From the NCBI RefSeq assembly GCF_000816845.1, contig NZ_CP006880.1, forward strand, positions 496,001-560,000: a stretch of 64,000 nucleotides of DNA. Reading direction: 5' to 3'. A program made the translations under genes and the position numbers. The DNA comes from Rhizobium gallicum bv. gallicum R602sp (GTDB taxonomy: Bacteria; Pseudomonadota; Alphaproteobacteria; Rhizobiales; Rhizobiaceae). The notes under the pieces are model-generated. The model worked only from the letters and a program-made list of their open reading frames with translations, had not been told where the DNA came from and made no database searches. Below are positions 19,680-37,100 of this stretch, piece after piece (position 1 is the stretch's first letter; each line of letters starts with the position of its first letter).

Positions 19680-21655
19680 CACTGGCGCCGACGTTTTTGG
19701 TTTTGGCGTTCTTTTTGCTTGGGCCTTTCAACTGGTCGCGTAACCATAGCTGGACGCGCGCGATCACATGCGCTGTCGTTGGCGCCATTGCATTGCGCTA
19801 TATACTCTGGCGGTTATTCGAGACGGTACTCCCTTATCCCAACGATGGTCCCAACTTCTACTGGGTCTGGTTTCTGTTCATCGTAGAAATTCTCGCGTTC
19901 TTTGAAGTCGTCCTCTTCCTGGTCTTGATGAGTCGATACGTGGACCGGAGCGCAGAAGCGGACAGGCTCGCGCGAGACTTCTTTAGAGGTGACGAGGATG
20001 AATTGCCCACGGTGGATGTGTTCATTCCTACCTACAACGAGCCGCTCGACGTCCTGGAAAGGACGATTATAGGGGCGCTTGCGCTCGACTATCCAAAAGA
20101 CAAGCTGAAAGTCTACGTGCTCGACGATCAGCGTCGTGATTGGCTTAAGGCGTACTGCAAGGAGAGGGGAGCAATCCACGTCACACGGCCCGACAACAGC
20201 CATGCCAAAGCCGGCAACATGAACAACGGTTTAAAGGTCAGCTCCGGCGACTTCATCGCGATATTCGATGCTGACTTCGTGCCCTATCGTCACTTCCTGC
20301 GCCGCACGCTTCCCTTCTTTTCCGATGCAACCATCGGCATCGTTCAAACGCCGCAGCATTTCTTCAATACCGATCCGGTGCAGACAAATCTTGGTCTCGA
20401 AAATATCTGGCCGGACGAGCAGCGTTTGTTTTTTGATGAAATTGCACCGAGCCGAGATATCTGGGACGTCAGTTTCTGCTGTGGGTCATGTTCGATCTCG
20501 CGACGCAAGGCGATCGATGCGATTGGGGGCTTTCCGACGGAATCCATCACGGAGGATTTGTTGACCACTCTTTCCATGCTCAACAAGGGTTACAAGACCC
20601 GTTACCTGAATGAGCGCCTGTCGATGGGATTGGCCGCAGAGAATTTGACTGGCTATTTCGTACAGCGTGAGCGCTGGTGCCAGGGGGGAATTCAAACACT
20701 CTATCTTCACAACGGCCCACTACGCGGTCCTGGCCTCTCGCTCTTTCAACGCATCATGTTCCTTCCGCTATCGTGGTTGGTCCAGTATCTGGTGCGCTTT
20801 ACGATACTGATCATCCCGATCATATATCTCTGGTTCGGCTTGTTGCCGCTCTACTTCACCAACGCTGCGGATTATATCTCCAATCAGGTGCCGTTGCTGA
20901 CGGCCTATTTCCTTTTGATGCTCTGGATAACGCCGACGCGGTATTTGCCCGTCGTATCGAGTGCCGTCGGAGCTTTTTCGACGTTTCGGATGTTACCAAC
21001 TGTCATTTCCAGTGTGGTGCGGCCCTTCGGCAAACCGTTCAGGGTAACCCCGAAGGGCAGCGGCAACGAAGCCATTGGATTTGATGGATACAGCTTTTCC
21101 TGGATAGCGGCGTTGATATTGGCGACGGCCGTCGGTCTTATCATCAATATTGTGCCTGAGACCTCCCATGTCGAGGCGCAGTTCTCTCCGATTGCGGCTT
21201 GCTGGTCGGGCATCAACATTCTTGTTCTCGCTATCGCGTCCTTGATCTGCTTTGAGAAACCGCGACGGCTCTTCAATGCGTTCAAACTCGATGAAGCGGT
21301 TCACGTGGATGGCGTTCCCGGACGCATGGTCAGTCTGGCACTTGACAAGGCAGTCGTTGCCGTGCCGACGGAGGCGCGCTTTGAATCTGCCGATGTCACG
21401 CTTTCGCTCGAAGGTTTTTCACCCTTCAAAACGGAACTAAGGATGGTCACTCAAAGACGAAGGAGCGTTGCTCGCCATGGCGACAAGGAGGCCTTCTACC
21501 TGCACCTCCATTTCGATCTTAGCGGGGCGGCCCGCGATAAAATGATCGTCAAGCTCTATACCGGCCGTTACTCCCAGGACGTTCGTGACATTGACAAAGT
21601 CGCTGTCTCTATCAACCTGCTGCTTAGGACGTTCGGTCGAACCCGGACGCTTTGA
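19640..21655 (+). CDS. bgsA: Family 2 glycosyltransferase, beta-glucan synthase (BgsA/CrdS/BcsA-like)
   Basis: This 671-residue inner-membrane synthase has membrane segments at both ends of a cytosolic GT-A domain. The processive D,D,D,QxxRW set is present: D162-D163 in VLDDQRRDW, D210/D212 in FDADF, TED at 304-306, and QRERW at 342-346. QTPQHFFNTDP is also family-typical. The C-terminal tail of about 110 residues (RRRSVARHGDKEAFYL) sits where cellulose synthase has PilZ, and in S. meliloti BgsA this tail binds cyclic di-GMP. Cellulose or curdlan synthase are alternatives. A GTG at 19661 is a possible later start. Confidence 0.78.
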   Translation: MELGGRPVVQYLIALAPTFLVLAFFLLGPFNWSRNHSWTRAITCAVVGAIALRYILWRLFETVLPYPNDGPNFYWVWFLFIVEILAFFEVVLFLVLMSRYVDRSAEADRLARDFFRGDEDELPTVDVFIPTYNEPLDVLERTIIGALALDYPKDKLKVYVLDDQRRDWLKAYCKERGAIHVTRPDNSHAKAGNMNNGLKVSSGDFIAIFDADFVPYRHFLRRTLPFFSDATIGIVQTPQHFFNTDPVQTNLGLENIWPDEQRLFFDEIAPSRDIWDVSFCCGSCSISRRKAIDAIGGFPTESITEDLLTTLSMLNKGYKTRYLNERLSMGLAAENLTGYFVQRERWCQGGIQTLYLHNGPLRGPGLSLFQRIMFLPLSWLVQYLVRFTILIIPIIYLWFGLLPLYFTNAADYISNQVPLLTAYFLLMLWITPTRYLPVVSSAVGAFSTFRMLPTVISSVVRPFGKPFRVTPKGSGNEAIGFDGYSFSWIAALILATAVGLIINIVPETSHVEAQFSPIAACWSGINILVLAIASLICFEKPRRLFNAFKLDEAVHVDGVPGRMVSLALDKAVVAVPTEARFESADVTLSLEGFSPFKTELRMVTQRRRSVARHGDKEAFYLHLHFDLSGAARDKMIVKLYTGRYSQDVRDIDKVAVSINLLLRTFGRTRTL

Positions 21656-22144: not shown

Positions 22145-22156
22145 ATGTATAGACAT
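22145..22156. promoter_or_regulatory. HutC/GntR-type operator upstream of SDR gene (site 1)
   Basis: ATGTATAGACAT is a near-palindrome whose core GTATAGAC (22147-22154) matches the HutC-subfamily consensus GTMTAKAC. It lies 53 bp before the SDR start. The same core, within a longer shared context (ATATGTATAGACA then CGC and AAA), recurs at 23174-23181. A HutC-type GntR regulator is encoded in the same cluster at 29825. Confidence 0.7.
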
Positions 22157-22208
22157 GTTACCGCAAAAATGCTGCCGTCTCGTCGGGAACCCAGAACAAG
22201 GAGCCGTC

Positions 22209-22976
22209 ATGACCCATTCGAAATTTGATCTTTCTGGTCGCCGCGCCCTCGTCACCGGAGCAAGCCGCGGCATAGGTCAGGCAATCGCGATTGCATTGGC
22301 GGAGGCCGGTGCGGACGTGGCGATCACAGCGCGGGCGGTCGAGGGGCTGGCCGAAACCCGGGAACGGATCGAGAAGTCCGGCAGCCGGTCGGTGACGCTT
22401 GCCCAGGACGTGCGCGACATCGAGGCCTGCAGAAGCGTCACGGGAGCTGCGGCCGAGGCGCTGGGCGGCCTCGATATTCTTGTCAACAATGCCGGGCTCG
22501 AGAATGTTCGGCCGTCCTTCGACGTGGACGAGGCGCTTTGGGAATCGATCCTGGAGACCAATTTGAAGGGGGCGTTCTTCTGCGCTCAGGCGGCCGGCCG
22601 GATCATGGCGGAGGCACGCGGTGGAGCTATCGTCAATCTCTGCTCGTTGACCTCCTATGTCGGTATTCCGACGGCAGCGCCCTATGGCGCCTCGAAGTCA
22701 GGCCTTCTCGGCGTGACGCGGGCGCTGGCCACCGAATGGGCGGCGCACAACATCCGCGTCAACGCCATTGCGCCCGGCTATTTCCGCACGGCCATGACCG
22801 AGGTCTTCTACGAGAACGAGGACTGGCAGTCGCGCATGCTGGCCAAGATCCCGCAGCGCCGTTTTGGCAAGGAGAGCGACATCGGTGGCGTCGCGGTCTT
22901 CCTTTGCAGCGATGCTGCAGCTTACGTCACCGGTCACTGCATTCCAGTCGACGGCGGCTATCTCGCCTCGATCTGA
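22209..22976 (+). CDS. Short-chain dehydrogenase/reductase
   Basis: This 255-residue classical SDR has the cofactor motif TGASRGIG (17-24) and NNAG (93-96). The catalytic Ser146, Tyr159 and Lys163 lie in YGASKSG. The VDGGYLASI end is common in gluconate-5-dehydrogenase/3-oxoacyl-type members. It probably oxidises or reduces a polyol or hydroxy-acid. It carries its own HutC-type operator and is separated by 305 bp from the transporter genes, which have a second operator. It is likely part of the same regulon. AAGGAG at 22198-22203 supports ATG 22209. Confidence 0.82.
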   Translation: MTHSKFDLSGRRALVTGASRGIGQAIAIALAEAGADVAITARAVEGLAETRERIEKSGSRSVTLAQDVRDIEACRSVTGAAAEALGGLDILVNNAGLENVRPSFDVDEALWESILETNLKGAFFCAQAAGRIMAEARGGAIVNLCSLTSYVGIPTAAPYGASKSGLLGVTRALATEWAAHNIRVNAIAPGYFRTAMTEVFYENEDWQSRMLAKIPQRRFGKESDIGGVAVFLCSDAAAYVTGHCIPVDGGYLASI

Positions 22977-23161
22977 GATGGAGCGTCGCACGGATGGTTC
23001 GTCCGATAGTGCAAGCCGTACCGGACACTCGTCGGGCGTGCTTGCCTTTCTTTTCGCCGACGACAACACTGTCGGTGGAGTTGGGCCTGCTTTTCGTACT
23101 GCACAAATATTGGTCAGGCGACTTTATGGCGCAAAAAATACGCAAGCTTGATTGACGGTAC

Positions 23162-23181
23162 TTGTACAAATATGTATAGAC
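23162..23181. promoter_or_regulatory. HutC/GntR-type operator upstream of ABC operon (site 2)
   Basis: GTATAGAC at 23174-23181 repeats the core of site 1, and TTGTACAA at 23162-23169 is an adjoining perfect 8-bp palindrome. The location, about 100 bp before the ATPase start at 23282, fits repression of the transporter-dehydrogenase operon by the HutC-type regulator. Surrounding bases are also shared with site 1. Confidence 0.7.
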
Positions 23182-23281
23182 AACTTAACGCCAAACTCGG
23201 TCGGTTGCCTGTCGACCGGAACGGTAGAATGAAGCTTCGCGTCGGCCTCGTTCGTCGAACGGAGCAAGACAGGGGAATGTC

Positions 23282-24415
23282 ATGGGCGTTGTTGCTGCTG
23301 AACTCTGTCCGGCTGGATCAACCGGTCAGATCGCCGTTTCCGTTAAGGATGTCGGCATGGTCTTCGGTGATGTCCATGCCGTCAGGAATGCCGTCTTCGA
23401 CCTGCCGAAGGGACGGTTCTTGACCATTCTCGGCCCGTCCGGTTCCGGCAAGACGACTCTTCTGCGCATGATCGCCGGTTTCGACCAACCAACCAGCGGG
23501 GAAATCTTCATCAACGGTCAACCGGTCAGTGCTGTGCCGCCCCACAGGCGCGCGATCGGCATGGTGTTCCAAAAGCTCGCACTCTTCCCGCACATGACGG
23601 CGGCGGAGAACGTCGCCTTTCCGCTCAAGATGCGCCGCCACGATGCGCGCACGATCCCGGAAAAGGTCGAGCGCTATCTCGATCTCGTCCGACTGGGCGG
23701 CTATGGCAACAGGCGCATCAACGAGTTGTCCGGCGGACAGCAGCAGCGTGTCGCCATCGCCCGCGCCCTGGTGTTCGAGCCAGACCTGCTCCTGCTTGAT
23801 GAACCGCTTGCCGCGCTCGACCGCAAGCTGCGCGAGGAGATGCAGCTAGAGTTCCGCCGCATCCAGAAGGAACTCGGGGTAACGACGATCAATGTCACCC
23901 ATGACCAGCGCGAGGCCCTGGTGGTGTCCGACGAGGTCATCGTCATGAGCGGCGGCGAAATCCAGCAGAAAGCCCGTCCAGTCGACGCTTATCGCGCGCC
24001 GTGCAATGCCTTCGTCGCCAACTTCATCGGTGTCACCAATTTCATTGACGGCAAGGTCGTCGACCTGACTTCTTCACGCGTCGTGTTCGAAGCGAACGGC
24101 CTGCGCCTTACCGGCGTGGTTGCCGATGCCGCGCTTGCGGCAGGTTTGCCCTGCGCCGCTGCCGTTCGTGCCGAGCAGATCCGCATCGCACAAAAGGGCG
24201 GGAGCCTCGACGGTCTCGAAACGGTGGTGGACGGCCAGGTGGTCGACTGCATCTTTGAAGGCGAGCGCGTCGTCTACGAAATTCGGGTTCCGGGGCTGGC
24301 CGGCGTGCTGATGCGCGTCTTCAACCACGATCCCGAATCCCACTTGCAGTTCGGTCCTGGCGAAGAAGTTCGTCTCGGCTGGAATGCCAGAGATATGCAT
24401 GTCTTTCAAAAATGA
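23282..24415 (+). CDS. ABC transporter ATP-binding protein (PotA/spermidine-putrescine type)
   Basis: This 377-residue ATPase has Walker A GPSGSGKTT (51-59), Q-loop VFQKLALFPHM, signature LSGGQ (149-153) and Walker B LLLLDE (169-174). A C-terminal TOBE-like region (about 290-375) follows. It energises import together with the two permeases and the Tat-type binding protein that follow. The PotA-like class takes up polyamines, opines, amino-polyols or other small organic compounds, so the substrate is not fixed by the family. A HutC-type operator lies upstream. Confidence 0.87.
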   Translation: MGVVAAELCPAGSTGQIAVSVKDVGMVFGDVHAVRNAVFDLPKGRFLTILGPSGSGKTTLLRMIAGFDQPTSGEIFINGQPVSAVPPHRRAIGMVFQKLALFPHMTAAENVAFPLKMRRHDARTIPEKVERYLDLVRLGGYGNRRINELSGGQQQRVAIARALVFEPDLLLLDEPLAALDRKLREEMQLEFRRIQKELGVTTINVTHDQREALVVSDEVIVMSGGEIQQKARPVDAYRAPCNAFVANFIGVTNFIDGKVVDLTSSRVVFEANGLRLTGVVADAALAAGLPCAAAVRAEQIRIAQKGGSLDGLETVVDGQVVDCIFEGERVVYEIRVPGLAGVLMRVFNHDPESHLQFGPGEEVRLGWNARDMHVFQK

Positions 24416-24448
24416 CCCCGAGAAGGTCCAGCCAGAGGAGAATGTGTA

Positions 24449-25564
24449 ATGTCGCATGAAAAGTTCCTGTCCGCGCAGATCTGCCGCCGGACGCTGCTTG
24501 CGTCCATGGCCGCAGCCGGCGCCTCGGCCGGCCTTTCGACGCTCGGCGTCAGCCGCGCCTTTGCCCAGGAGCCGGAAAAGCCGGCCGAGATCATCGTTCG
24601 CGCCTGGGGTGGTAGCTGGGTCGATGCGCTCAAGGCCGGCGTGTCCGACAGCTTCACCAAGATGACCGGCATCGCTGTTCGCCACGACCTGACCGAGGAC
24701 AACGAGATCCAGCCGAAGGTCTGGGCCGCTGTTGCCCAGAAGCGTGTCCCGCCGATCCACATCAACTGGGACACGACGACGAACGCGACCAAGTCGGCGC
24801 TGCGCGGGGTGACCGAGGACCTGTCGGACTTGCCGAACCTCAAGAACGCTACCGATCTTGCCAAGCCGGTCGGTCTCGGGGGCTATCCGATTGTCAACAC
24901 ATACGGCTATGTCTACGTGCTCGCCTATCGCCCGTCTGCCTTCCCGAACGGTGCGCCGAGGTCCTGGAAGGACCTGCTCGATCCCAAGCTCAAGGGTCGC
25001 ATCGCGCTCTACAATGATGGCATCGGCTTCCATTTCCCGGCCCAGGTCGCTGGCGGCGGCAAGCTCGAGGACATTCCGGGCAACATGCAGCCGGCCTGGG
25101 ACTTCATTTCCAAGATCAAGGAACAGCAGCCGCTGCTCGGCGAGGACCCGGATTTCACCACCTGGTTCCAGAAGGGCGAGATCGACGCCGCCTGCACCAT
25201 CTCGACCAACGCGCGCGAAGCCAAGAAAAATGGCATTGAGATCGCGTGGGTCGTGCCGGAGGAAGGCGCCAAGTTCGATACTGACGGCCTGTGGATCCCA
25301 AAAGGCCTGCCGGAGAACGAGCTTTACTGGGCCAAGCAGTACATCAACCACGCCCTCACCAAGGAAGCCCAGCAGATCTGGCTCGACGGTCTCGGTCTGC
25401 CAGGCGTCGTCCCTGGCGTCAATCCGCCGGCCGATCTCGTGGGCGATCCGTCCTATCCGACTAAGGAAGAGGACTTCAAACATCTGATCCGCATCTCGTC
25501 CAAGGTGCAGGTCGAAAACGAGAGCCAGTGGTTCGCCAAGTTCAAGGAAATCATGCAGGGCTGA
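24449..25564 (+). CDS. PotD-like extracellular solute-binding protein with twin-arginine-like signal
   Basis: This 371-residue binding protein belongs to the iron/spermidine-putrescine (PotD/type 2) class. The N-terminus CRRTLLASMAAAG (R13-R14) followed by a hydrophobic stretch and SRAFAQ suggests Tat export, with cleavage near residue 38. Mature motifs include VRAWGGSWVDAL, NTYGYVYVLAYR and SWKDLLDPKLKGRIAL. The last is typical of this class. It delivers ligand to the permeases encoded downstream. A strong hairpin follows the stop codon. Confidence 0.85.
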   Translation: MSHEKFLSAQICRRTLLASMAAAGASAGLSTLGVSRAFAQEPEKPAEIIVRAWGGSWVDALKAGVSDSFTKMTGIAVRHDLTEDNEIQPKVWAAVAQKRVPPIHINWDTTTNATKSALRGVTEDLSDLPNLKNATDLAKPVGLGGYPIVNTYGYVYVLAYRPSAFPNGAPRSWKDLLDPKLKGRIALYNDGIGFHFPAQVAGGGKLEDIPGNMQPAWDFISKIKEQQPLLGEDPDFTTWFQKGEIDAACTISTNAREAKKNGIEIAWVVPEEGAKFDTDGLWIPKGLPENELYWAKQYINHALTKEAQQIWLDGLGLPGVVPGVNPPADLVGDPSYPTKEEDFKHLIRISSKVQVENESQWFAKFKEIMQG

Positions 25565-25574
25565 AGCCTTGTCC

Positions 25575-25604
25575 TGCCCGCCGCGTCCCCTCTGGCGGCG
25601 GGCA
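25575..25604 (+). terminator. Hairpin after PotD-like gene
   Basis: TGCCCGCCG at 25575-25583 pairs perfectly with CGGCGGGCA at 25596-25604 around a 12-nt loop, followed by CTCCTTCTTT. It lies between the binding protein and the permease genes. It probably reduces read-through or protects the upstream message, so that the binding protein is made in excess. Confidence 0.65.
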
Positions 25605-25634
25605 CTCCTTCTTTAGTCAAACAGGATCGGTATC

Positions 25635-26579
25635 ATGCGCGCTCCCCGTGCCGCATATCCTCTGACATGGCGCGTCATGGATGTGCTTGAAGGCTTTGCG
25701 GCTATCGTCTGGCCATCGAGTTTCCGGCCAGGCCTGCCTTATCTCTTGTTGCTGCCGGCGGTTGTGCTCGTGGGGCTGCTCGTGCTCGGTCTCGTCCAGA
25801 TCGGCGACACGAGCCTGAGAACGCTCGATACCAATACCTTCCTAATGTCGGAGAACTACACGCTCGCCAACTACCAGCGCGTTCTGACTGAGAAATTCTT
25901 CGCGACGGTGGCCGGCCGCAGCCTCATGGGCGCAGTGATTGTCACGGCAATCACGCTGCTGTTCGCCTTCCCATACGCCTACCTGATGGTGCGCACGCCG
26001 TCGTCGGCGCTTCGCAGGTTCCTGCTCGTGGCGCTCTTCTTGCCCTTCTTCATCGGCCAGGTGGTGCGCGCCTATGGCTGGCTCATCATTCTCGGCAACC
26101 AGGGAATGGTCAACGAGGCGCTCGGTCTCGTCGGTGTGCCGCCTATGCGACTCCTCTACAACTACCCTGCAGTTCTTTTCGGCCTTGTGCAATACATGCT
26201 GCCCTTCGCCGTCCTGATGCTGGCGCCTGCTCTGACCGCGATCCCGAGCGAGCTCGAGGCGGCGGCGGCCTCCCTCGGCGCCGACTGGGTCCGCACCTTC
26301 CGCCATATCGTCCTGCCGCTCTCCCGGCCAGGCCTCGTCGGCGCGGGGCTCGTGGTCGTCACGCTCTCGCTCACCGATTTTGCCATTCCCGCCATCCTCG
26401 GCGGCGGCACTCAGGACTTCATCGCCAACGCGATCTACGACCAGTTCTTCCGCACCTCCGACCAGGGTCTAGGGGCGACGCTGTCGCTTATGCTTGTCGC
26501 TGTGGGCTCCATCCTCGTCGGCGTCGTGTTCGCGCTCTTCGGCGCTGGCACCCTCGCCATCGGGGGAGACCGCAAATGA
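25635..26579 (+). CDS. ABC transporter permease, PotB type
   Basis: This 314-residue inner-membrane permease has about six membrane segments. The EAA loop is in LEAAAASLGADWVRTFRHIVLPLSRPG, seen here as EAAAASLGA and HIVLPL, and contacts the ATPase. The early loop NTFLMSENYTLANYQRV is typical of PotB/AttA2-like permeases. Its stop overlaps the start of the second permease by 4 bp (ATGA), so the two are coupled. Confidence 0.87.
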   Translation: MRAPRAAYPLTWRVMDVLEGFAAIVWPSSFRPGLPYLLLLPAVVLVGLLVLGLVQIGDTSLRTLDTNTFLMSENYTLANYQRVLTEKFFATVAGRSLMGAVIVTAITLLFAFPYAYLMVRTPSSALRRFLLVALFLPFFIGQVVRAYGWLIILGNQGMVNEALGLVGVPPMRLLYNYPAVLFGLVQYMLPFAVLMLAPALTAIPSELEAAAASLGADWVRTFRHIVLPLSRPGLVGAGLVVVTLSLTDFAIPAILGGGTQDFIANAIYDQFFRTSDQGLGATLSLMLVAVGSILVGVVFALFGAGTLAIGGDRK

Positions 26580-27376
26580 CCGGCAGCCGAAGCAAGTTCA
26601 TCGTCATCTGGGCATTCGTCGCAACTGCGCTGGTCATGCTTTCAGCACCCACTATCGTGGTGCTCGGAGCCTCCTTCACGGCCGGAAACATCATCACCTT
26701 CCCACCGGATGGATTGTCGCTGAAATGGTATGGCGCAATCGCGCAAGCGAGCGATCTCCGGCAGGCCTTCCTGCGTTCGCTGATCGTCGCTGCGATATGC
26801 ACGGCGACCGCCATCCCCGTCGGCACGCTCGCCGGCATCGCACTCGCCAAGTACCAGGTACGGTTTGCTCGCTCCATCCAGATCTACCTACTGCTGCCCT
26901 TCACCATTCCGCTGATCGGCTCCGGCATCGGCATGATGCTTGTCTTCGGACAGATGAACGTCCTGGGCAGGCTGTGGCCGGTGGGTATTGCGTGCTGCGT
27001 CATCAACCTGCCCTTCATGATCTGGGCCGTAACGGCGAGTGCCAGCAACCTGTCGCCGGATCTCGAGCTGGCAGCGGCCAATTGCGGGGCCCCGCCGCTG
27101 CAGCGCTTCCTCTACATTACCCTTCCAGCAGTGCTGCCGGGCGTGATCACCGGATCGCTGCTGATGTTCATCCTCGCGCTCAACGAGTTCCTAGTCAGCC
27201 TGCTGCTCGTCGATGCCCGAAGCGTGACACTGCCGGTGCAGATCTACAATTCCATCCGCTCGATCATTACGCCTGATTTGGCTGCCATCTCGGTGGTATT
27301 CATCGCCTGCGCCGGGCTTGCGATCGCATTGCTCGACCGCCTGGTCGGTCTCGACATCTTCCTCAAATCGAAATGA
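26576..27376 (+). CDS. ABC transporter permease, PotC type
   Basis: This 266-residue second permease subunit has a matching EAA-type loop, LELAAANCGAPPLQRFLYI. It shows the six-segment hydrophobic pattern of PotC. It overlaps the PotB-like gene by 4 bp and is followed 43 bp later by the HisD-like dehydrogenase. Transport and catabolism are thus in one operon. Confidence 0.87.
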   Translation: MTGSRSKFIVIWAFVATALVMLSAPTIVVLGASFTAGNIITFPPDGLSLKWYGAIAQASDLRQAFLRSLIVAAICTATAIPVGTLAGIALAKYQVRFARSIQIYLLLPFTIPLIGSGIGMMLVFGQMNVLGRLWPVGIACCVINLPFMIWAVTASASNLSPDLELAAANCGAPPLQRFLYITLPAVLPGVITGSLLMFILALNEFLVSLLLVDARSVTLPVQIYNSIRSIITPDLAAISVVFIACAGLAIALLDRLVGLDIFLKSK

Positions 27377-27419
27377 CCTCTTCGGCCCCCGCGGCCGGTC
27401 AGACATCAAGGACAAAACG

Positions 27420-28748
27420 ATGACCAACGTGTCTTTCTACGATTATTCCAAGCTAAACGTCGAGGAAAAGGCGGCGCTGCTGCGCCGCTCGGAAACCGAC
27501 ATCTCGAGTTTCGTCGAAAAGGTCGCGCCGATCCTCGAAGCCGTGCGCACAGAGGGTGACAAGGCGCTTGCCCGGTTCGGCCGCGAATTCGACAAGGCAG
27601 ATATCACCGAGGCCAATCTCAAGGTCACCGAGGCGGAGTTCGATGCGGCCTTCAAGCTGGTCGATGCGAGCGTCATCGAATCCATAAAGTTCGGCATCGA
27701 CAATATCCGCAAGTTCCATGAGGAGCAGAAGCCGGAAGCCATGTGGCTGAAGGAAATCCGTCCCGGCGCCTTTGCCGGTGACCGCTTTACGCCAATCCAG
27801 TCGGTCGCGCTCTACGTGCCGCGTGGCAAGGGTTCCTTCCCGTCGGTGACGATGATGACCTCGGTTCCGGCCGCGGTAGCGGGCGTCCCGAACCTCGCCA
27901 TCGTCACACCACCGGCGCCGGACGGCTCCGTCGATGGCGCAACTCTCGTTGCAGCACGACTTGCAGGCGTCGAGACCGTCTACAAGGTCGGCGGTGCCCA
28001 GGCCGTAGCGGCGGTTGCCTACGGAACCGAAACCGTCAAGCCGGCACTGAAGATCGTCGGCCCCGGCAGCCCGTGGGTTGTCGCTGCCAAGCGCTCGCTC
28101 TTCGGCGTCATCGATACCGGCCTTCCGGCCGGCCCGTCCGAGGTGATCATTCTTGCCGACGATACGGTCCATGGTGGACTTGCAGCACTCGACCTTTTGA
28201 TTGAGGCGGAACACGGCGCGGATTCGTCGGCCTATCTCGTCACCCACAGCCGCCGGGTCGCCGAAGAGGCGCTCGCCGCGCTTCCCGAGCACTGGACGAA
28301 GATGACCGAGCAGCGCGTCGCTTTCTCCAAGGCCGTGCTGACCGGCAAGTCGGGCGGCGTGGTGCTCACCTCCTCGATCGAGGAGAGCTACGAGTTCGTC
28401 AACGCCTATGCGCCGGAGCATCTGGAGCTTCTGTCGGAAGAGCCGTTTATCCATCTCGGCCATATCACCGAGGCTTCCGAAATCCTGATGGGCACCCACA
28501 CGCCGGTCAGCATCGCCAATTTCTCGCTCGGCCCAAATGCCGTGCTGCCAACCAGCCGCTGGGCGCGCACCTTCGGCCCGCTGTCGGTTGCGGATTTCGT
28601 CAAGCGTAGCTCCGTCGGCTTTGTAACGGCATCTGCCTATCCGGAATTTGCCCGGCACTCGCACAATCTGGCAGTCTACGAGGGCTTCTCTTCGCACGCT
28701 CTGGCCGTCTCGCCGGTGCGCGATGCCTACCTGAAGAAGGACGCCTGA
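27420..28748 (+). CDS. Histidinol-dehydrogenase-family catabolic dehydrogenase (HpsN-like candidate)
   Basis: This 442-residue member of the HisD family would oxidise an alcohol to an acid in two NAD-linked steps. The catalytic pair Glu-His is kept (E333-H334 in APEHLELL), as are H265 and H426. Three positions differ from E. coli HisD as I recall it. E262 replaces the zinc ligand Gln259, N367 replaces Asp360, and A374 replaces the substrate-contacting His367. It is therefore unlikely to be the histidine-biosynthetic enzyme. It sits between an ABC importer and a zinc alcohol dehydrogenase. Known catabolic relatives include HpsN, sulfopropanediol 3-dehydrogenase. A HutC-type regulator downstream keeps imidazole-containing alcohols possible. 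Confidence 0.78.
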   Translation: MTNVSFYDYSKLNVEEKAALLRRSETDISSFVEKVAPILEAVRTEGDKALARFGREFDKADITEANLKVTEAEFDAAFKLVDASVIESIKFGIDNIRKFHEEQKPEAMWLKEIRPGAFAGDRFTPIQSVALYVPRGKGSFPSVTMMTSVPAAVAGVPNLAIVTPPAPDGSVDGATLVAARLAGVETVYKVGGAQAVAAVAYGTETVKPALKIVGPGSPWVVAAKRSLFGVIDTGLPAGPSEVIILADDTVHGGLAALDLLIEAEHGADSSAYLVTHSRRVAEEALAALPEHWTKMTEQRVAFSKAVLTGKSGGVVLTSSIEESYEFVNAYAPEHLELLSEEPFIHLGHITEASEILMGTHTPVSIANFSLGPNAVLPTSRWARTFGPLSVADFVKRSSVGFVTASAYPEFARHSHNLAVYEGFSSHALAVSPVRDAYLKKDA

Positions 28749-28750
28749 AC

Positions 28751-29764
28751 ATGAAGGCCGTGCGGCTCCACGATACCAAGGTCCTGCGGGTGGAGGAAGT
28801 GGCCGAGCCATCGGCCCCGCCACCGGGCTTCGTCAATCTCCTGATCAGGGCCGCCGGTATCTGCGGTTCCGACCTTCACAACTACCGCACCGGTCAGTGG
28901 ATCTCGCGTCGTCCCTCCACGGCCGGGCATGAATTCTGCGGCCGCGTGACGGCTGTCGGAGAAGGCGTCAGCCATGTTGCGGTTGGGGATGTCGTCTCTG
29001 CGGATTCGCGCGTATCGTGCGGCACCTGCCCAGCCTGTATGAGCGGCCGCAGCAACGTCTGCGAGACGCTGGGCTTCGTCGGCGAGGTCTGCGACGGCGG
29101 CTTTGCCGAGGCGGTGCAACTACCGGCCCGGCTGGTCGTCCGTCACGATCCGCAGCTTTCGCCGCATATCGCCGCCATGGCCGAGCCGCTCGCAGTAGCG
29201 CTGCACGCCGTGCGCCGTCTCGCCGTCCCGGCCGGGGAACCGGTTCTCGTGATCGGTTGCGGCACGATCGGCGGGCTGAGCGCCCTTCTTCTCCGCCGGC
29301 TGCATGACGGCCCGCTGCTGCTGGCCGATCTCAATGCTGAAAGGTCGGCTCTCGTTTCCGAGGTGACCGGCGGCACGGTCGTTTCTCTTGACAAGGCAAA
29401 GATCGAAGCAGCACTTTCCGGCGGACGGCTGCGTCATGCCCTCGATGCCACCGGCAGTATCCAGGCGATTGAACTGGCGCTTGACATCATGTCGAGCGGT
29501 GGAGCGCTTGCCCTCGTCGGTATCGGCCACGGCAAGCTCGACTTCGACCCGAACATCCTGGTCGAGCGGGAGATATCGCTCATCGGCAGCCATGCCTTCG
29601 CCGGCGAACTGCCCGAGGCCGTCGGGCTGCTTGTCGAGCTCGCGCCCGCGCTTCAACGCTTCATCATGGTGCTGCCGGCTCTCGACGACGTGCCCGAGGC
29701 TTACGAACAGCTGTTGCGGGGCGAGAGCAAGGCCCTGAAGACGATCGTCGAGGTGGCGGGCTAG
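28751..29764 (+). CDS. Zinc-dependent alcohol dehydrogenase (MDR superfamily)
   Basis: This 337-residue medium-chain dehydrogenase has catalytic zinc ligands C38 (CGSD) and H60-E61 (GHEF). A full structural zinc site is present: C90, C93, C96, C104. A Rossmann motif VIGCGTIGGL follows. It resembles sorbitol/threonine-dehydrogenase-like polyol oxidisers. It starts 2 bp after the HisD-like gene, with GAAGGA upstream, so the two are co-translated. It may interconvert stereoisomers or oxidise the same substrate at the secondary alcohol. Confidence 0.85.
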   Translation: MKAVRLHDTKVLRVEEVAEPSAPPPGFVNLLIRAAGICGSDLHNYRTGQWISRRPSTAGHEFCGRVTAVGEGVSHVAVGDVVSADSRVSCGTCPACMSGRSNVCETLGFVGEVCDGGFAEAVQLPARLVVRHDPQLSPHIAAMAEPLAVALHAVRRLAVPAGEPVLVIGCGTIGGLSALLLRRLHDGPLLLADLNAERSALVSEVTGGTVVSLDKAKIEAALSGGRLRHALDATGSIQAIELALDIMSSGGALALVGIGHGKLDFDPNILVEREISLIGSHAFAGELPEAVGLLVELAPALQRFIMVLPALDDVPEAYEQLLRGESKALKTIVEVAG

Positions 29765-29824
29765 TCCGGCCCGTCCATGATTCCGGATGCCAGCCTTTCA
29801 AGGCGGCGGGAGAGGCAGTGAACC

Positions 29825-30556
29825 ATGAATGCACTTTCAGATTCCGCATCGCCGCTTTACGAGAAGGTGAAGGTATTTGTCCTCGGCAATATTGGCAGCG
29901 GCAAGTGGGCCCGCAACAGCCGCCTTCCGTCGGAGAACGAACTCGTCTCGGCGCTGGGTGTCTCCCGCATGACCGTCCACCGGGCGCTGCGCGAACTCAC
30001 CTCCGAGGGGCATCTGCGCCGCATCCAGGGCGTCGGCACCTTCATCGCCCCGCCCAGGCCGCAATCGACGCTGATCGAGATCAGCAACATCATCACCGAG
30101 ATCAAGGCGCGCGGCAGCCGGCACCGGGCCGAGGTGGTCGTGCTCGAGCGTATCGAACAACCGGAAGCCGAGCTTCTGCTCGCCCTCGAGTTCGAAACCG
30201 TGAAACCCGTCGACCATTCGGTCGTGATCCATTTCGAGAACGACCTGCCGGTCCAACTCGAGGAACGCTATGTCAATCCCGACCTCGTTTCCGGCTATAT
30301 CGACCAGGATTTCAGCGCCCTCGCCACCTATGATTACCTGCAGAACGCCACCCCGCTGACCGAGGTGGAGCATCTCATCAGTGCCCTTCCGGCCGGCGAC
30401 AACCCGGGGCGCCTACTGCACATTCGTCCCACCGACTGCTGCCTGGTTCTGCATCGCAAGACCTGGACCGGGCCGGTCGTCGCGACCGTCAACACGTTCA
30501 CCTATGTCGGCAGCCGCTATTCGCTCGGCAGCCGCTATCTGCACGGCGGCAAGTGA
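29825..30556 (+). CDS. GntR-family regulator, HutC subfamily (UTRA domain)
   Basis: This 243-residue regulator has an N-terminal winged HTH (PSENELVSALGVSRMTVHRAL, given here as PSENELVSALG and SRMTVHRAL). A UTRA effector domain (about 95-235) contains VQLEERYVNP, TEVEHLISA and LVLHRKTW. These are very close to histidine-utilisation repressors of the HutC type. No hut enzymes lie nearby, so it probably senses another ligand. Its expected operator core occurs at 22147 and 23174. GGGAGAGG upstream supports the start. Confidence 0.87.
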   Translation: MNALSDSASPLYEKVKVFVLGNIGSGKWARNSRLPSENELVSALGVSRMTVHRALRELTSEGHLRRIQGVGTFIAPPRPQSTLIEISNIITEIKARGSRHRAEVVVLERIEQPEAELLLALEFETVKPVDHSVVIHFENDLPVQLEERYVNPDLVSGYIDQDFSALATYDYLQNATPLTEVEHLISALPAGDNPGRLLHIRPTDCCLVLHRKTWTGPVVATVNTFTYVGSRYSLGSRYLHGGK

Positions 30557-30600
30557 CCGCCGATCCTCATATTTGGGACGACCCATCCGGAAAGAATGTC

Positions 30601-31893
30601 ATGAGCCAGACCATGAGCCGCACTGCGGAAATCAGGAAGATAGCCAAAGTAGGGGACGACAAGGCGGAACGATTACTGGCCGAACTGCTGCGCGACCTTT
30701 TCGAGATCGAGCCGAAGAATGTCGTGATCAATCACGATCAATACAGCCTCAATTCGCTCAACGGCTTCTTCGAGACCGCCGATGGTGCATTCTTCTTCAA
30801 GTTCCACCAGGAAGAGGGCGAGGAGGCCATGAGCGGCGAATATTACCGCGCCGACATCCTGGCACGGGCTGGCCTGCCGGTGGACCAGCCTGTGCTGATG
30901 TCGGCGCTTGCGGGTGAACAGATCCTCGTCTATCGCCGGCGGACCGATCCGCGCTTCTCCGATGTGCTGCGGACGTTGGACCTGACGGACGATGCCGCGG
31001 CGCGCAAAAGGGCTGTGGACGCCGAACGCAGGCTGAACGAAGCCGTGTTGAAGGTCTATCTCGACACGCTCCATCCCGTGAGCGCCGATCAGGTTGCGGC
31101 CGAGCCGATCCACCGGCTGTTCTCCGAGCGGCTGATTGATCCAACCGCCGGCACCTATCCGGGCGGGCGCATGGCGAGCTTCTATGTCGGCAAGGACTTC
31201 GTCTTTCCCGACTTGACGCTCGATTGGGAGACGTTTTCACGCTGTCGCATTTCGGTCAACGGCATCGAATACCGGGACAGCATCGGTGCCCTCTTCCATC
31301 AAGCGCACGAGCGGCTCGATCCGACGCGGCTGGCGGATGCGGGCGGTGTTACTGCACATGGCGACGCCCATAACGCGAATGTCTGGTACGAGGAGGACGG
31401 CGGCGAGGCACGTTTGTCCTTCTTCGACCCCGCATTCGCCGGCGAGAACATTCCAACGCTGCTCGCCGAGGTGAAGACGACCTTCCACAACATCCTCGCC
31501 CATCCGCTATGGCTCTATGATCCTGCCATGGCGGCCGAGTACTACGAGGCCAGCGTGGTGCTTGACGGCGATCTGCTGCGGGTCACGACCGATTTCGGGC
31601 CGAGCCCGGTCCGACGCTCCCTTCTGGACGTAAAGGCCGAAGCTCTTTGGCGTCCCCTGCTTGGCGAACTGAAGGCGCGGGGCATGCTTCCGGCCGACTG
31701 GCGCCGGGTCATCCGGCTGGGCCTTTTCCTCTGCCCGACGTTGGTGATGAACCTGCGGGCCGGCGCCACGACCCATAACCCCGTTTCCTCGCTCATCGGC
31801 TTTTCCGTCGCGGTGATGGCTGGCAGCGAGCCAGTGGCAGGCGAGGATGCAGTTTCCCGCCTCCTGGACATGATCGATCCCGACAGAGGCTGA
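30601..31893 (+). CDS. APH/protein-kinase-fold small-molecule kinase of unknown substrate
   Basis: This 430-residue cytosolic kinase has a Brenner-type catalytic motif HGDAHNAN (253-260), giving the catalytic Asp255 and Asn260. The metal-binding Asp276 is in LSFFDPAF. The N-terminal lobe (FFKFHQEEGEEAM) has the expected Lys/Glu pair. Such kinases phosphorylate sugars, amino-alcohols, aminoglycosides or choline-like molecules. It is the last gene of the transporter/HisD-like/ADH/GntR operon. GGAAAG precedes ATG 30601; a GTG at 30553 overlaps the GntR stop and is a less likely start. The presence of a kinase is not part of known sulfopropanediol or histidinol routes. Confidence 0.7.
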   Translation: MSQTMSRTAEIRKIAKVGDDKAERLLAELLRDLFEIEPKNVVINHDQYSLNSLNGFFETADGAFFFKFHQEEGEEAMSGEYYRADILARAGLPVDQPVLMSALAGEQILVYRRRTDPRFSDVLRTLDLTDDAAARKRAVDAERRLNEAVLKVYLDTLHPVSADQVAAEPIHRLFSERLIDPTAGTYPGGRMASFYVGKDFVFPDLTLDWETFSRCRISVNGIEYRDSIGALFHQAHERLDPTRLADAGGVTAHGDAHNANVWYEEDGGEARLSFFDPAFAGENIPTLLAEVKTTFHNILAHPLWLYDPAMAAEYYEASVVLDGDLLRVTTDFGPSPVRRSLLDVKAEALWRPLLGELKARGMLPADWRRVIRLGLFLCPTLVMNLRAGATTHNPVSSLIGFSVAVMAGSEPVAGEDAVSRLLDMIDPDRG

Positions 31894-32101: not shown

Positions 32102-32932
32102 TCAACCGCTTTTGACTGACCGGCGCCCGGTCTTCTCCAGGTCGTCATCGTACTCCGTCCTTACCCGTTCGAGTCGGGCGTCTTCCTGGTCCAGACCCCA
32201 TCGGCGATCGACAAAGAATTCGAGAGCTTTTCGTGTCTCGACGCAGAGGAATTCCCCTTCGAAGCCGTATTCGGTCCGCACGACGGCCGCCTGCTCCGGT
32301 GTGAGGCCGGTTTTTGGCCTGAGCCATATCCTTGCCCGCGTATTCCAATCCATGTCGTCGGGGAATTGCTCTGACAGTGCACGCGTCTCAAAACTGCTGC
32401 CGGTGCTGACGCGAATGGGCAGATAGGTTCGATACGCCTCATGCTTGAAGCTGAAGGCTCTCACGTGAACTTTTTCGCCGTCTGACACGAAATGTGTGGG
32501 GACAATCCATTGTCCGGCATCCGCACCTGACGTCATCGACGTATACTGGACGTGAATCGCCCACCTGTTCCTCATCGCCTGATAAAGACGCGACACCACA
32601 GAAGCATCAGCGCGACGTTCCGGCTGGGGTAGGGCGACAGAGAGGGGCAGGTTGTTTTCAGCCAGCACGGACGCAAAAGCCTCGTTCAACGTGGAAGGGA
32701 CAAGAGGCTTGTGGTCGAGGGCTGCCAGATAGGTCTTCCGCACAGGATCGTAGGTGGGAGGCGTATGCCTGGCGCGCTCAAGATAGAGGCGGAAGTCGAG
32801 GGCTGCCTGAGCGGTAGAGATGTCAAAGCGGTCGATCAGATCGCGCCGGTTGGCCATGCCACGCCACGTCAGACACTGATCGAGAAAGATCAGTCGCTCG
32901 CGCTGAGCATGTTTCAGGTCGTCGAATTCCAT
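32102..32932 (-). CDS. WYL-domain transcriptional regulator (BrxR/CapW-like architecture)
   Basis: This 276-residue protein has an N-terminal winged HTH (RERLIFLDQCLTWRGMANRRD, seen here as RLIFLDQCLTWRG and ADLIDRFDIS-like NRRDLIDRFDISTAQA). A WYL domain (about 115-205, with IHVQYTSMTSG and VSDGEKVHVRAFSF) and a C-terminal WCX-like part follow. This is the layout of BrxR/CapW repressors that control phage-defence loci. The usual W-Y-L residues are partly changed. It diverges from sbcD with a 76-bp AT-rich gap. A role in controlling sbcDC is inferred. Confidence 0.75.
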   Translation of the reverse strand: MEFDDLKHAQRERLIFLDQCLTWRGMANRRDLIDRFDISTAQAALDFRLYLERARHTPPTYDPVRKTYLAALDHKPLVPSTLNEAFASVLAENNLPLSVALPQPERRADASVVSRLYQAMRNRWAIHVQYTSMTSGADAGQWIVPTHFVSDGEKVHVRAFSFKHEAYRTYLPIRVSTGSSFETRALSEQFPDDMDWNTRARIWLRPKTGLTPEQAAVVRTEYGFEGEFLCVETRKALEFFVDRRWGLDQEDARLERVRTEYDDDLEKTGRRSVKSG

Positions 32933-33008: not shown

Positions 33009-34151
33009 ATGCGACTGCTTCACACTGCGGACTTGCATCTCGGGCGTCAGTTCCATGGCATTTCGCTTGAGGATGACCATGCGGCGATCCTCGACCAGAT
33101 CCTGCAAGCGATAAACACGCACCGACCCGATGTCTTCATAATCGCCGGCGACATTTTCGATCGCGCATCTCCTCCCGCAACCTCGGTGCGGCAATTCAAT
33201 GCCTTTCTCGGTCGAGTGGCCCGAGAGACGGAAGCGGCCGTGGTCATGATTGCCGGCAATCATGATTCTGGCGACAGGATCGGCGCCATGTCAGTCCTGA
33301 CGGACGTACGGCGAGCATTGATCCGTGGACCGCTTTTGGCGGACGAAACACCTCTGATCCTGCGTGACGCAGCTGGTCCGGTTGCCATTTCCGCCCTGCC
33401 ATACGGCTACGAATTCGCCGCACGCGACTGCTTCGGCGATGAGTCGATCGCAATGCCCGAACATGTCATTCGCGCCCAGGTCACCGCGGCGCGGCGGCAT
33501 CTTCCGGAAGGAGCGCGCTGGGTCGTGGTTGCCCACGCCTTTGTAGAGGGCGGCAGTTCCAGTGAAGGAGAGCGGCCCCTGGCACGGGTCGGTGGCATCG
33601 AGACGGTTCGCCACGACATGTTCGATGGCGCTCACTACGTGGCGCTTGGTCACCTGCATCTGCCGCATTCGGTCGGCATGCCGCACATCCGCTATGCCGG
33701 TGCTCCGCTGGCATTCGGTTTCGACGAGGCTGGAAGCGTAAAGTCGATGAGCCTCGTCGATCTCGATGAACAGGGCAGGGTAGCGATCATTGCACTCCCA
33801 TTCGCGCCTACCCGGGGCGTTAGGGTCTTGCGCGGCAAGTTCGCTGACCTGCTGCACGGGGAACCATCGACCGATTTCATCAAGGCAGTGCTGACGAATG
33901 ATGCGCCGCTGATCGATCCGATGAAGCGTCTTCGCGAGCTATACCCGAATGCCTGTCAGCTGACTTATGCACGAGATGAGCGGGCGCTCGACATCATGTC
34001 CGAAATCAAGGTGCAAGCCACTCTGCATGATCCGGCAAAGGTCATTCGGGAGTTCCTGACGCAGGTTCGCAGCGAAGACCCGGTCGATGCGGAGTTGGCG
34101 TTGATCGGTTCTGCCCTTTCTGATCTTCGAAGCGTGGAGGCGCAGGTATGA
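33009..34151 (+). CDS. sbcD: Exonuclease subunit SbcD (Mre11-like)
   Basis: This 380-residue calcineurin-like phosphoesterase has all metal motifs: TADLHLG (D8, H10), GDIFD (D48), GNHD (83-86), AHAF (H176) and GHLH (214-217). With SbcC it forms the SbcCD nuclease, which cleaves DNA hairpins and protein-blocked ends. Length is normal. Its stop overlaps sbcC by 4 bp (ATGA). It lies opposite a WYL regulator. Confidence 0.92.
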   Translation: MRLLHTADLHLGRQFHGISLEDDHAAILDQILQAINTHRPDVFIIAGDIFDRASPPATSVRQFNAFLGRVARETEAAVVMIAGNHDSGDRIGAMSVLTDVRRALIRGPLLADETPLILRDAAGPVAISALPYGYEFAARDCFGDESIAMPEHVIRAQVTAARRHLPEGARWVVVAHAFVEGGSSSEGERPLARVGGIETVRHDMFDGAHYVALGHLHLPHSVGMPHIRYAGAPLAFGFDEAGSVKSMSLVDLDEQGRVAIIALPFAPTRGVRVLRGKFADLLHGEPSTDFIKAVLTNDAPLIDPMKRLRELYPNACQLTYARDERALDIMSEIKVQATLHDPAKVIREFLTQVRSEDPVDAELALIGSALSDLRSVEAQV

Positions 34152-37100
34152 GGCCGGTCAGACTGACGATGCAGGCATTCGGTCCTTATGCCGGCAGGGT
34201 CGTGGTGGACTTCCGTGACGCAATTGCCTCGGGCCTTTTCGGCATCTATGGGCCGACAGGGTCCGGCAAGTCGTCGATCTTCAGTGCCATGACCTTCGCG
34301 CTGTTCGGCGAGGCGGCCAAAGCTGAACAAGAGACAGCGTCGCTTCGCTCCGATCATGCTGATCCCGGCGTTCCGACCGAAGTCGAGTTCGTATTCGATA
34401 TCGCTGACAAGCGATATGTTCTGCGGCGGCGGCCGGAGCAGACCCGGCCCAAACAGCGTGGTGACGGTGAGACCCGGGATACCCATGAAGCCTGGATTTT
34501 TGACGCGACCGGTCTTGCACTCGAGGACATAACCGACGCGAACCCCGGCCAGGTCATTGCGGAAAAGAAGACCGGTCCAGTCAAAGAGGCTGTGTTCCAG
34601 CTCCTCGGCTACGGTGCTGAACAATTCCGTCAGATCGTGCTGTTGCCACAGGGTAAGTTCGAGACGTTCATGGCGGCAAAGACCGATAAGCGGCTCGAGA
34701 TCCTGCGTGAGCTCTTTGATGTTTCCATGTATCGGCGCATGGCGGCAAAGTTCAAGGAGGATGCGGCGGCAGCTGAGCGGCGGGTTCGGCAAGAACGTGA
34801 AGTGTGCGCAGGGCGACTTTCGGCCGAGGGTTTTGAGAGTCCCGACGCGCTTGCAACCGGCATTGGCGAGGCGCAGGTCGTCCATGACACGGAAACGCTG
34901 AAGGAGATGGCGGCCGACCAGGTGTTCGATGCTTCACGGACGGCACTTGCTGCCGCCCGTCAGCTCGAGGACCAGTTTCGAGCCGCCGAGAAAGCCAGGT
35001 CGGATGTCGAAGCCCTCGTTGGAAAAGCTGAGCATATCCGTGAACTGCAGGGGCGCGCCGACAATGCCAAGCGTGCCCAAGCGCTCCTGGACGTCGAGCG
35101 CCACGCGAAAGGTGCCGAGACCGAATGCCTCGAAGCTGAGGAAACAATGAGAGCGGCCGCGGAGGCAAACAGCGCAGCGGCGGAAAAGGCTGGCGCCGCC
35201 TCCAGAACGCACGAAGAGGAACGGGAAAGATCGGGAGAAATTGAGGCCCTGCGGCAAGCGGTCGGTACGCTTGGACGCCATCAACTGACCCTTTCCGATG
35301 CAAGCCTTTACGCCCAGAAGGCGGATGCAGCCTTAAAGGCCGTTCAGCAGGCGAAGAAGGCTTTCGATTGCGTCGAGGCGCGTATCGAGGAAATGCATGG
35401 CCGGAAACTCGAAAAGGAGCGGGCACTCGGATCCACTCGAAAGAATGATGCCGCGCGCCAGCGGCTAGTCCATCAGCGATTGCTCGTTGAAAATGAGCTT
35501 AAAACAGCCGAGCTCCATCAGGCTGCTCTCGACGTCGCCGACAAGGCGCGCGTCGAAATGCAGGCGTTGAAAGCGGACAACGAAGAGGCGGTCCAGTGGG
35601 CACAGGCCGCGCGGTCGCGCTTTGACGCTGCAGAGGCCGCCCTTGCTGAGGCCCAAGCTATTCATTTGGCTGCCAAGCTTGCAGCGGGCGAGGCCTGCCC
35701 TGTCTGCGGATCGACCGAGCACCCTCTGCCCGCTGTCGGCAGGGCTGAGCATGCCGGTCTCGATCAGTCGTTTAGAGATGCGAAGGCTCAATGGGAGGAA
35801 GCGCAAAGGTCCGAGCAGGACGCTTCTCGCCTTTTCGCTTCGGCGCAAGCGAAATGGCAGGAACGCCAGGAAAGACTTGGCGCACTCCCTAAGCCTGAAC
35901 GGCCGGCCGCCGATTACCGCACCACGATTGCTGGGTTGGGCCGGCAGATCGAAGAGCTCGGCCCGGCGATCGATCTCGCCCAGGCTGAGGCCGCACTGAC
36001 CACATTGGCGACCGAGATTGGCTCAACGGAACAGGAGCGCGACAGCCTCCGTACGGCGTTCGAGACATCGAAAACCAATGAAGCGCTCGCGCGCGACAGG
36101 TTCGAGCAGGCGATCGCAACAGTTCCCCAGGAACTGCGGACGCCGGGCGCTCTGATTGCCATGCGCGCCGAACATGAACGCCAGCTCGCAGCTCGAATGG
36201 ATGCGGCAAGAGTTGCGGAGGATGCTGCACGCCGATCCCGTGAAGCCGCGATCATTGCCAATACGGCAGCAGACGCGGCCAGGCAGGCGTATGAGAATGC
36301 AATAGTTCGCCGAGATAAGGCCCAAGCGGAGTTCCAGGCCCGTCTGGCGAAGAGCGGCTTGACGAAACCTCAATTCAGCGGCTTCAAGCAGCTGGTCGAC
36401 GCGATCGAGGCTGATGCTCAGGAGATCGCAGACTACGGCAATGCATTGGCGATAGCGCATAGCAACGAAGAGACTTCGACGCGCGCGGTGGAGGGCCGCG
36501 AACGTCCAGATACCCGTATCTTGCAAGAGGCTTATGACACAGCAGACGAGATGCTCGATCTTGCCAAGACGGCGCGCGCCCAGGCGCAGGCGCGGTTACG
36601 GCAACTCGAGAAACTTCAGCTTGATATCGCCGGTCAACTGAAGCGCCTCGACGAGATCGAAACTGAGACGGCCTCGCTGCGAACGCTTGCGGCCCTGTTC
36701 AATGCTGAAAATCCCCTGCGGTTGGACCTTGAGACCTATGCGATCGGTGCGATGTTCGACCAAGTGCTGGTCGCAGCAAACCAACGGCTTGGTCCTATGA
36801 GCGGTGGTCGCTTCAGCCTCGAACGTGAAATCGAAGGTGGAGCAGGCCGCTCGCGCCGCGGCCTTGGTATCCGGGTGTTTGATGTACACACCGGTAAGGC
36901 ACGTCCCACGTCGACACTGTCAGGTGGGGAGACGTTCATGGCCGCCTTGGCCCTGGCGCTTGGTCTTTCCGATATCGTCGAGAGCGTGAGCGGCCAGGTG
37001 CGGCTCGATACCATTTTCATCGACGAAGGTTTTGGGAGTCTCGATACCCAAAATGAGTCCGGCACGCTCGATCAGGTCCTGCAGGTACTTACCAATCTCG

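Follow-up and report, generated by a model that had tools for sequence, protein, structure and literature searches.

A 64,000-nucleotide stretch of the genome of Rhizobium gallicum bv. gallicum R602sp (contig NZ_CP006880.1, positions 496,001 to 560,000; the window in what follows) carries nine closely spaced genes at 22209-31893 on its + strand, encoding an importer, three dehydrogenases of different superfamilies, a HutC-type regulator and a small-molecule kinase. We propose, at a rough probability of 0.58, that this locus would be a nitrogen-scavenging regulon that feeds an imported imidazole (histidine-like) amino-alcohol or diol into the histidine utilization (hut) pathway, as histidine or as a histidine-pathway intermediate. 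In broader terms, the gene set probably serves soil bacteria to import and oxidise a nitrogen compound related to histidine. The support comes from conservation of the module, the hut genes linked to it elsewhere, its HutC-type operators, the conserved kinase motif, and membership of its histidinol dehydrogenase paralog in a clade that includes HisD proteins encoded beside hisB. A preliminary description had taken the locus for an uncharacterised, co-regulated catabolic one, a judgement that our analysis supports, acting on a diol or amino-alcohol, which would be the natural expectation for a HisD-type enzyme.

A nine-gene locus with two HutC-type operators

Profile matches bore out the gene order and protein families given in the preliminary description, with the gene number corrected from seven to nine. 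A short-chain dehydrogenase/reductase (SDR) of 255 residues (22209..22976), whose nearest solved chain is 4j2h (E 1e-144), is followed by a PotA-type ABC importer ATPase (23282..24415), a periplasmic solute-binding protein of the SBP_bac_8 family (24449..25564), PotB-like and PotC-like permeases (25635..26579 and 26576..27376), a HisD paralog that we call HisDx (27420..28748; PF00815, 450.8 bits), a zinc-dependent medium-chain dehydrogenase (MDR; 28751..29764), a GntR/UTRA regulator (29825..30556) and the kinase (30601..31893). Intergenic gaps are at most 70 bp, the sole exception being the 305 bp between the SDR and ATPase genes, where the second operator lies. Among the importer proteins only the ATPase passes its curated Pot model, TIGR01187 potA, and by a hair (355.7 bits for a cut-off of 355.6); the binding protein and permeases score far under theirs.

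The regulator is of HutC type (TIGR02018, 249.5 bits, cut-off 220; UTRA domain PF07702, 83.3 bits), while being only 32% identical to the HutC of its own genome, which scores 286.5. The operator core TGTATAGACA stands on the + strand upstream of the SDR gene (22146..22155) and again between the SDR and importer genes (23173..23182). Both sites satisfy the HutC-subfamily consensus GTMTAKAC, as given in the available part of PMC4494728, and are one base off the hut/HutC operator form TGTA-N2-TACA, as given in the available part of PMC12977541. The core is also one base from the operator TGTATATACA of the genome's own hut operon. Two of the six copies of the core in the 7.3 Mb genome are at the locus, and its longer form ATGTATAGACA matched twice, at 22145 and 23172, compared with 0.14 matches per shuffle on average (one mismatch allowed), so that the two matching cores reported earlier stand. 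No match to a strict sigma-54 (-24/-12) pattern was found 5' of the SDR gene; the window matches, at 19704 and 38206, compare with 1.47 expected. The preliminary description had named the HutC family correctly and left it as a side remark; because the same module adjoins hut genes in several lineages, we regard the regulator instead as the best clue to function.

The kinase represents an uncharacterised, APH-fold-like family. It scores 22.0 bits against PF01636, below the gathering score of 23.2, matches no NCBIfam model at E 0.001, and found no relative among PDB sequences, where two matches were at chance level (E 0.49 and 0.77). The hallmarks of the APH superfamily are an HGDxxxxN loop, an ATP-binding Lys and a later Asp, and all are present: the motif HGDAHNAN is intact, and all 58 homologs in the alignment share Lys67, His253, Asp255, Asn258, Asn260 and Asp276. 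A large protein set yielded 1392 homologs among 7995 candidates scored; the 120 homologs listed are named as hypothetical protein, phosphotransferase or RdoA-like.

Conservation and distribution of the module

Kinase genes were found in 19 of 297 genomes of the order, and the kinase profile matched in 7 of the 398 genomes of a wider phylum sample at E 1e-10, all within the window's own class; both counts include the own genome. Two sets of kinase loci were compared: an order sample of 18 loci of about 20 kb each from the 297 genomes, and an 80-set, the best 80 of 253 confirmed stretches, chosen by the kinase, which is thus present in 80 of 80 by construction. Because the sets overlap, with three pairs of loci apparently the same (L022/L080, L023/L075 and L024/L089), they are counted apart and never summed. 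Open reading frames (ORFs) in these loci came from a simple longest-ORF script, not a gene finder, and some are spurious.

A comparison of kinase neighbourhoods, suggested in the preliminary description, revealed a stable core: within the 80-set, HisDx and MDR are each present in 77 loci, SDR in 72, a dedicated GntR regulator in 58, a HisC paralog in 41 and a flavin mononucleotide (FMN) alpha-hydroxy-acid oxidase in 18. Importers are of two kinds, a Pot-type binding protein (33 loci) or an SsuA-like importer (40 loci), never both together; one SsuA-like member tested scored 147.1 bits against SsuA_fam, under the cut-off of 163.5. In most of the mapped loci the SsuA-like importer and FMN oxidase come after the kinase, and in two (L116 and L119) this importer is upstream of the SDR. 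Of the 31 HisC paralogs placed, 30 are divergent from the SDR; that of L047 is about 15 kb away. One such paralog tested passes NF003496 (575 bits, cut-off 540); the own genome has no ortholog that we could find, its best match being 32%.

The kinase was seen on plasmids in 106 records, among them Sinorhizobium (53), Rhizobium (34) and Klebsiella (9). Two Klebsiella plasmids (L149, Klebsiella sp. pBDA134-6; L188, K. michiganensis) combine the module with the SsuA-like importer, an alpha-hydroxy acid oxidase and a glyoxylate/hydroxypyruvate reductase, L188 having also an N-formylglutamate amidohydrolase several kb from the module. A Pacificitalea plasmid has the module with hisC, the oxidase and a HutC-like regulator.

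Other genes recur near these loci. A DMFA2_C (N,N-dimethylformamidase beta-like) protein lies 3' of the SsuA-like importer in L095 (14251-16281) and ten more loci, one of the 11 members having been tested, and a related protein is three genes from a HisD with the Glu/Asn ligands described below in L137, L139 (2752-4956) and L140. In Rhizobium herbae (L112:11379-13490) an old-yellow-enzyme/BaiCD-like oxidoreductase, scoring below its cut-offs, comes next after the module, with an aldehyde dehydrogenase-like protein further on.

Linkage to histidine utilization genes

In the own genome, HutF, HutC, HutI, HutH and HutU are encoded in an operon at C4, about 1.28 Mb, and all score over their NCBIfam cut-offs. 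Matches to these five proteins at 45-70% identity thresholds defined hut genes in the other loci, HutG being outside the search. By this measure 12 of the 18 order-sample loci (L025, L027-L032, L034-L038) have hut genes in the same roughly 20 kb, for a chance rate, generously estimated, of 0.012 per genome. All five genes adjoin the module in L034 to L037; in L028-L032, hutI and hutH are divergent from the SDR with a HutC-type site between, and urocanase is on another contig. Within the 80-set, 12 loci have hut genes in the stretch, many stretches ending near the SDR, so that a locus without them may have them farther out. Eight regions were extended outward. Those for L054 and L114 miss their locus and are uninformative. 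The six that overlap all have a hutC-F-I-H-U set; in L042, L055, L061 and L094 it immediately adjoins the module, and in L050 and L052 some 8 kb of other genes separate hutC from hutF. A HisDx locus with no kinase in its 19.5 kb (L135) has HutU within 4 kb. All 18 kinase genomes of the order sample had a urocanase-family protein, as did 40 of the 41 named kinase genomes searched.

Regulator content differs with this linkage. The dedicated GntR gene is present in 3 of the 12 hut-linked loci of the 80-set vs. 55 of the 68 without hut genes (Fisher P = 0.0003), and in none of 12 vs. three of six in the order sample (P = 0.02), both tests being uncorrected for relatedness. Among related loci, 37 of 71 in the 80-set and 12 of 17 in the order sample have a HutC-type site close to the SDR start as called. 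Such a site is kept by all nine hut-linked 80-set loci lacking the dedicated regulator, and by 10 of the 12 hut-linked order-sample loci, the exceptions being L038 and L034, the latter with a downstream site only. The simplest account of these patterns would be that HutC itself runs the module where it is hut-linked, and that a regulator of the window type took over where the module moved away.

The locus thus resembles the known HutC regulon in its HutC-subfamily repressor, its TGTA-type operator, nitrogen scavenging and its linkage in other genomes; it differs in having HisDx, kinase, SDR, MDR and importer, none of which belongs to the hut genes or is mentioned in the available part of a survey of the HutC regulon in Proteobacteria (PMC5343134).

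A second urocanase-family protein of the R. gallicum genome (C1:359971-360597; L177:877-2538) is a thiourocanate hydratase by its NCBIfam model (1060 bits, cut-off 930), hinting at ergothioneine breakdown, and related genomes commonly have a second, weaker PF01175 copy as well.

A HisD lineage with exchanged metal ligands

HisDx passes the histidinol dehydrogenase model TIGR00069 (420.5 bits, cut-off 243.8) and keeps the catalytic Glu/His pair and both metal His residues. It departs from canonical HisD at the other two metal ligands, which we take to be Gln259 and Asp360 in E. coli numbering: the four columns read Glu, His, Asn, His instead of Gln, His, Asp, His in 78 of 78 proteins (the window and 77 relatives), the window residues being Glu262 and Asn367. 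Further differences include Gly135Arg and Asn217Ser. HisDx is not the genome's only HisD, a point that the preliminary description had raised as a check, because a canonical HisD (560.7 bits) lies at C1:620339. In a tree of 56 sampled PF00815 proteins, which carries a long-branch warning, canonical HisD (8), HpsN-like proteins with Lys after the Asp (11) and a Glu/Asn clade (37; support 100/99) separated, and 13 alignment columns, both swapped ligands among them, mark the last.

We considered the Glu/Asn pair as a mark of lost histidinol dehydrogenase function and rejected this idea because sole HisD proteins encoded beside hisB carry it. The Glu/Asn type is the only intact PF00815 protein in G555, G330, G601, G631, G531, G612 and G431, each time no more than 5 kb from hisB (imidazoleglycerol-phosphate dehydratase, IGPD), G330 having one broken PF00815 fragment besides; in G460 it is the sole PF00815 type and IGPD is on a different contig. 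In these seven alphaproteobacterial genomes, whose loci are L143-L147, L174 and L175, the lineage with exchanged ligands apparently does the biosynthetic work. Over 16 listed active-site and motif positions, L143, L144, L145 and L174 differ from the window protein at one (Ser/Ala139) and L146 and L175 at three. In a set of 88 mostly kinase-associated proteins, 176 positions hold the same residue in 97% or more; of these, 106 are common to at least six of the seven hisB-linked HisDs and 20 to none. Judged from these comparisons, the Glu/Asn swap does not exclude histidinol dehydrogenase activity; the ancestral activity of the clade was probably histidinol dehydrogenation, and we infer that HisDx itself retains it.

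The preliminary description had leaned towards catabolism of sulfopropanediol (DHPS), in which a HisD-like enzyme, an SDR and an MDR also work together (HpsN, HpsO and HpsP). Its hallmark in HpsN, according to the available part of PMC11382572, is a GRY(A/S)H motif with the sulfonate-binding His126. The window protein has GKGSF here, with Phe in the His126 column in 78 of 78 proteins. The HpsN zinc set of Gln, His, Asp, His with Lys after the Asp is likewise absent, HisDx having Phe in place of this Lys. Its best score against HisD chains is 278.5 bits vs. at most 186.7 bits against DHPS-dehydrogenase chains. The SDR scores 152.3 bits against HpsO and 186.8 bits against the best chain with a characterised name, and the MDR 95.5 bits against 8wwd, which from the entry series we take to be an HpsP-type chain, and 132.9 bits against the best other dehydrogenase. 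The locus has a kinase and a HutC-type regulator besides. A DHPS- or cysteinolate-type sulfonate pathway with HpsN, HpsO and HpsP analogues would be consistent with the three dehydrogenase superfamilies and with the SsuABC-like importer of half the related loci (40 of 80), but we reject the HpsN reading on motif, metal ligands, clade and scores, and no sulfo-lyase was recognised among the 33 ORF clusters listed from the 80 loci, of which not every one was searched.

A different HisD paralog, with Lys after the Asp, a GKYPL motif and no HpsN His, is clustered in R. etli CIAT 652 pC (L157) with an acetolactate-synthase-like protein and a sugar ABC importer.

The counterpart in Sinorhizobium meliloti 1021

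On pSymA of S. meliloti 1021 all nine window proteins have counterparts at 84-97% identity, together with both operators; the cluster differs from that of the window in adding the HisC paralog and the FMN alpha-hydroxy-acid oxidase. From gene order, the gene names in the available part of PMC2912261 and a published motif site, we equate its genes with hisC3 (SMa0387), SMa0391, SMa0392, SMa0394, SMa0396, hisD2 (SMa0398) and SMa0402, the window binding protein being the SMa0392 ortholog by gene order. The motif site, at 214937-214957, is placed 484 bases from hisD2 (PMC12542648), in agreement with our HisDx start at 215463. The available sections of PMC2912261 report that hisC3, hisD2, four ABC genes and the GntR gene were down 8- to 24-fold in a tolC mutant, in which ntrBC, glnK, nrtABC, nirBD and hutU/G/H fell as well, and describe the transporter as being of unknown function. 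Its binding protein SMa0392 is repressed by the small RNAs AbcR1/2, according to the available part of PMC8844928. We found no assignment of this gene set to a substrate in the open-licence literature; one may exist elsewhere.

Proposed pathway and alternatives

The operators, regulator, importer and enzyme set point to an induced pathway of uptake and oxidation, the hut linkage to a product that enters histidine degradation, and HisD chemistry to a substrate with a CH2OH group next to an amino- or hydroxy-bearing carbon. A HutC-type protein would repress the locus until released by a histidine-pathway metabolite. The importer would then bring in a small imidazole amino-alcohol or diol, to be oxidised by HisDx and the two alcohol dehydrogenases (SDR and MDR), with HisDx presumably taking CH2OH to the carboxylate (histidinol to histidine, or a 2-hydroxy analogue), and the product (histidine, urocanate or a pathway intermediate) would pass to the ordinary hut pathway encoded elsewhere. 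Conversion of imidazolyl-lactate to imidazolyl-pyruvate and histidine is known from older enzymology of Pseudomonas testosteroni, and in the fuller loci the FMN oxidase and HisC paralog might similarly turn an imidazolyl alpha-hydroxy acid into the keto acid and then histidine; alternatively, the HisC paralog might aminate a phosphorylated ketone made by the kinase. A fuller version of this last route, which we consider rather doubtful, has catabolism reusing the end of histidine biosynthesis: an imidazole alcohol or ketone (such as imidazole acetol or imidazole glycerol) would be phosphorylated by the new kinase family, aminated by the HisC paralog, dephosphorylated and oxidised by HisDx to histidine, with Hut following under HutC-type control.

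Several observations weigh against feeding of an imidazole compound into the hut pathway. Histidinol to histidine needs HisD alone, leaving kinase, SDR and MDR unexplained. The window is not beside hut genes, its own hutF, hutI, hutH and hutU being about 0.75 Mb away, and just 2 of the 40 SsuA-type loci of the 80-set (L055 and L111) have hut genes within the stretch; importers of the SsuABC type usually carry sulfonates or similar ions. The L105 genome is without urocanase, as are G404 and G407 (81% complete), while G493 and G379 (94% complete) have HisDx as their only PF00815 protein and a kinase homolog, and neither urocanase nor IGPD. Three loci have the kinase without HisDx in the stretch (L026, L092 and L103, the last cut by a contig end), and of the seven hisB-linked HisDs that of L147 departs from the window protein at six of the 16 listed positions. 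Pocket residues of the HisC paralog are of mixed type in a comparison of HspAT with ArAT, so that it may use either a phosphate or a keto acid, and the tolC co-expression is correlation only.

Part of this evidence suits degradation of a nitrogenous amino-alcohol or polyol other than a histidine relative, hut proximity then reflecting shared nitrogen scavenging and the HutC-family repressor type. We judge this unlikely. Kinase, SDR and MDR would suit polyol or amino-sugar-alcohol catabolism better than histidinol, the two Klebsiella plasmids with reductase and oxidase have no HutF, HutC, HutI, HutH or HutU in the 25 kb covered, and G493 and G379 keep HisDx and kinase without urocanase. Yet HisC, HisD and HutC paralogs in one regulon are hard to obtain from shared nitrogen control alone, hut sets adjoin the module in several lineages in differing arrangements, and HisDx agrees with four of the seven hisB-linked HisDs at 15 of 16 positions (the others at 13, 13 and 10).

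Salvage, in which imported histidinol-like precursors would supply histidine for protein synthesis instead of being degraded, seems improbable. It would account for G493 and G379, which lack IGPD and urocanase, but R. gallicum has a canonical HisD of its own, and relatives link the module to degradation genes and HutC-type control. The sulfopropanediol-type pathway, opposed by the HpsN comparison above, is very improbable.

Flanking genes

Upstream of the locus, at 18441-21655, a membrane-fusion protein and a cellulose-synthase-like glycosyltransferase were recognised by eye only, as were SbcD/SbcC look-alikes downstream, at 33009-37225. Between the kinase and the latter, on the minus strand (32102-32932), is a protein with a WYL-like match of 20.1 bits, under the Pfam cut-off of 21.8.

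Implications

If the proposed feeding of imidazole compounds into the hut pathway is true, the textbook pathway would gain an upstream extension for a new class of natural imidazole nutrients, on which rhizobia, Devosia, other alphaproteobacteria and Klebsiella with such plasmids would draw. A kinase family that matches no curated model, and a HisD lineage whose metal ligands are altered, would also be placed in a functional context for the first time. Presence of the full gene set in S. meliloti 1021, for which expression data are published, makes the question directly testable by knock-outs.

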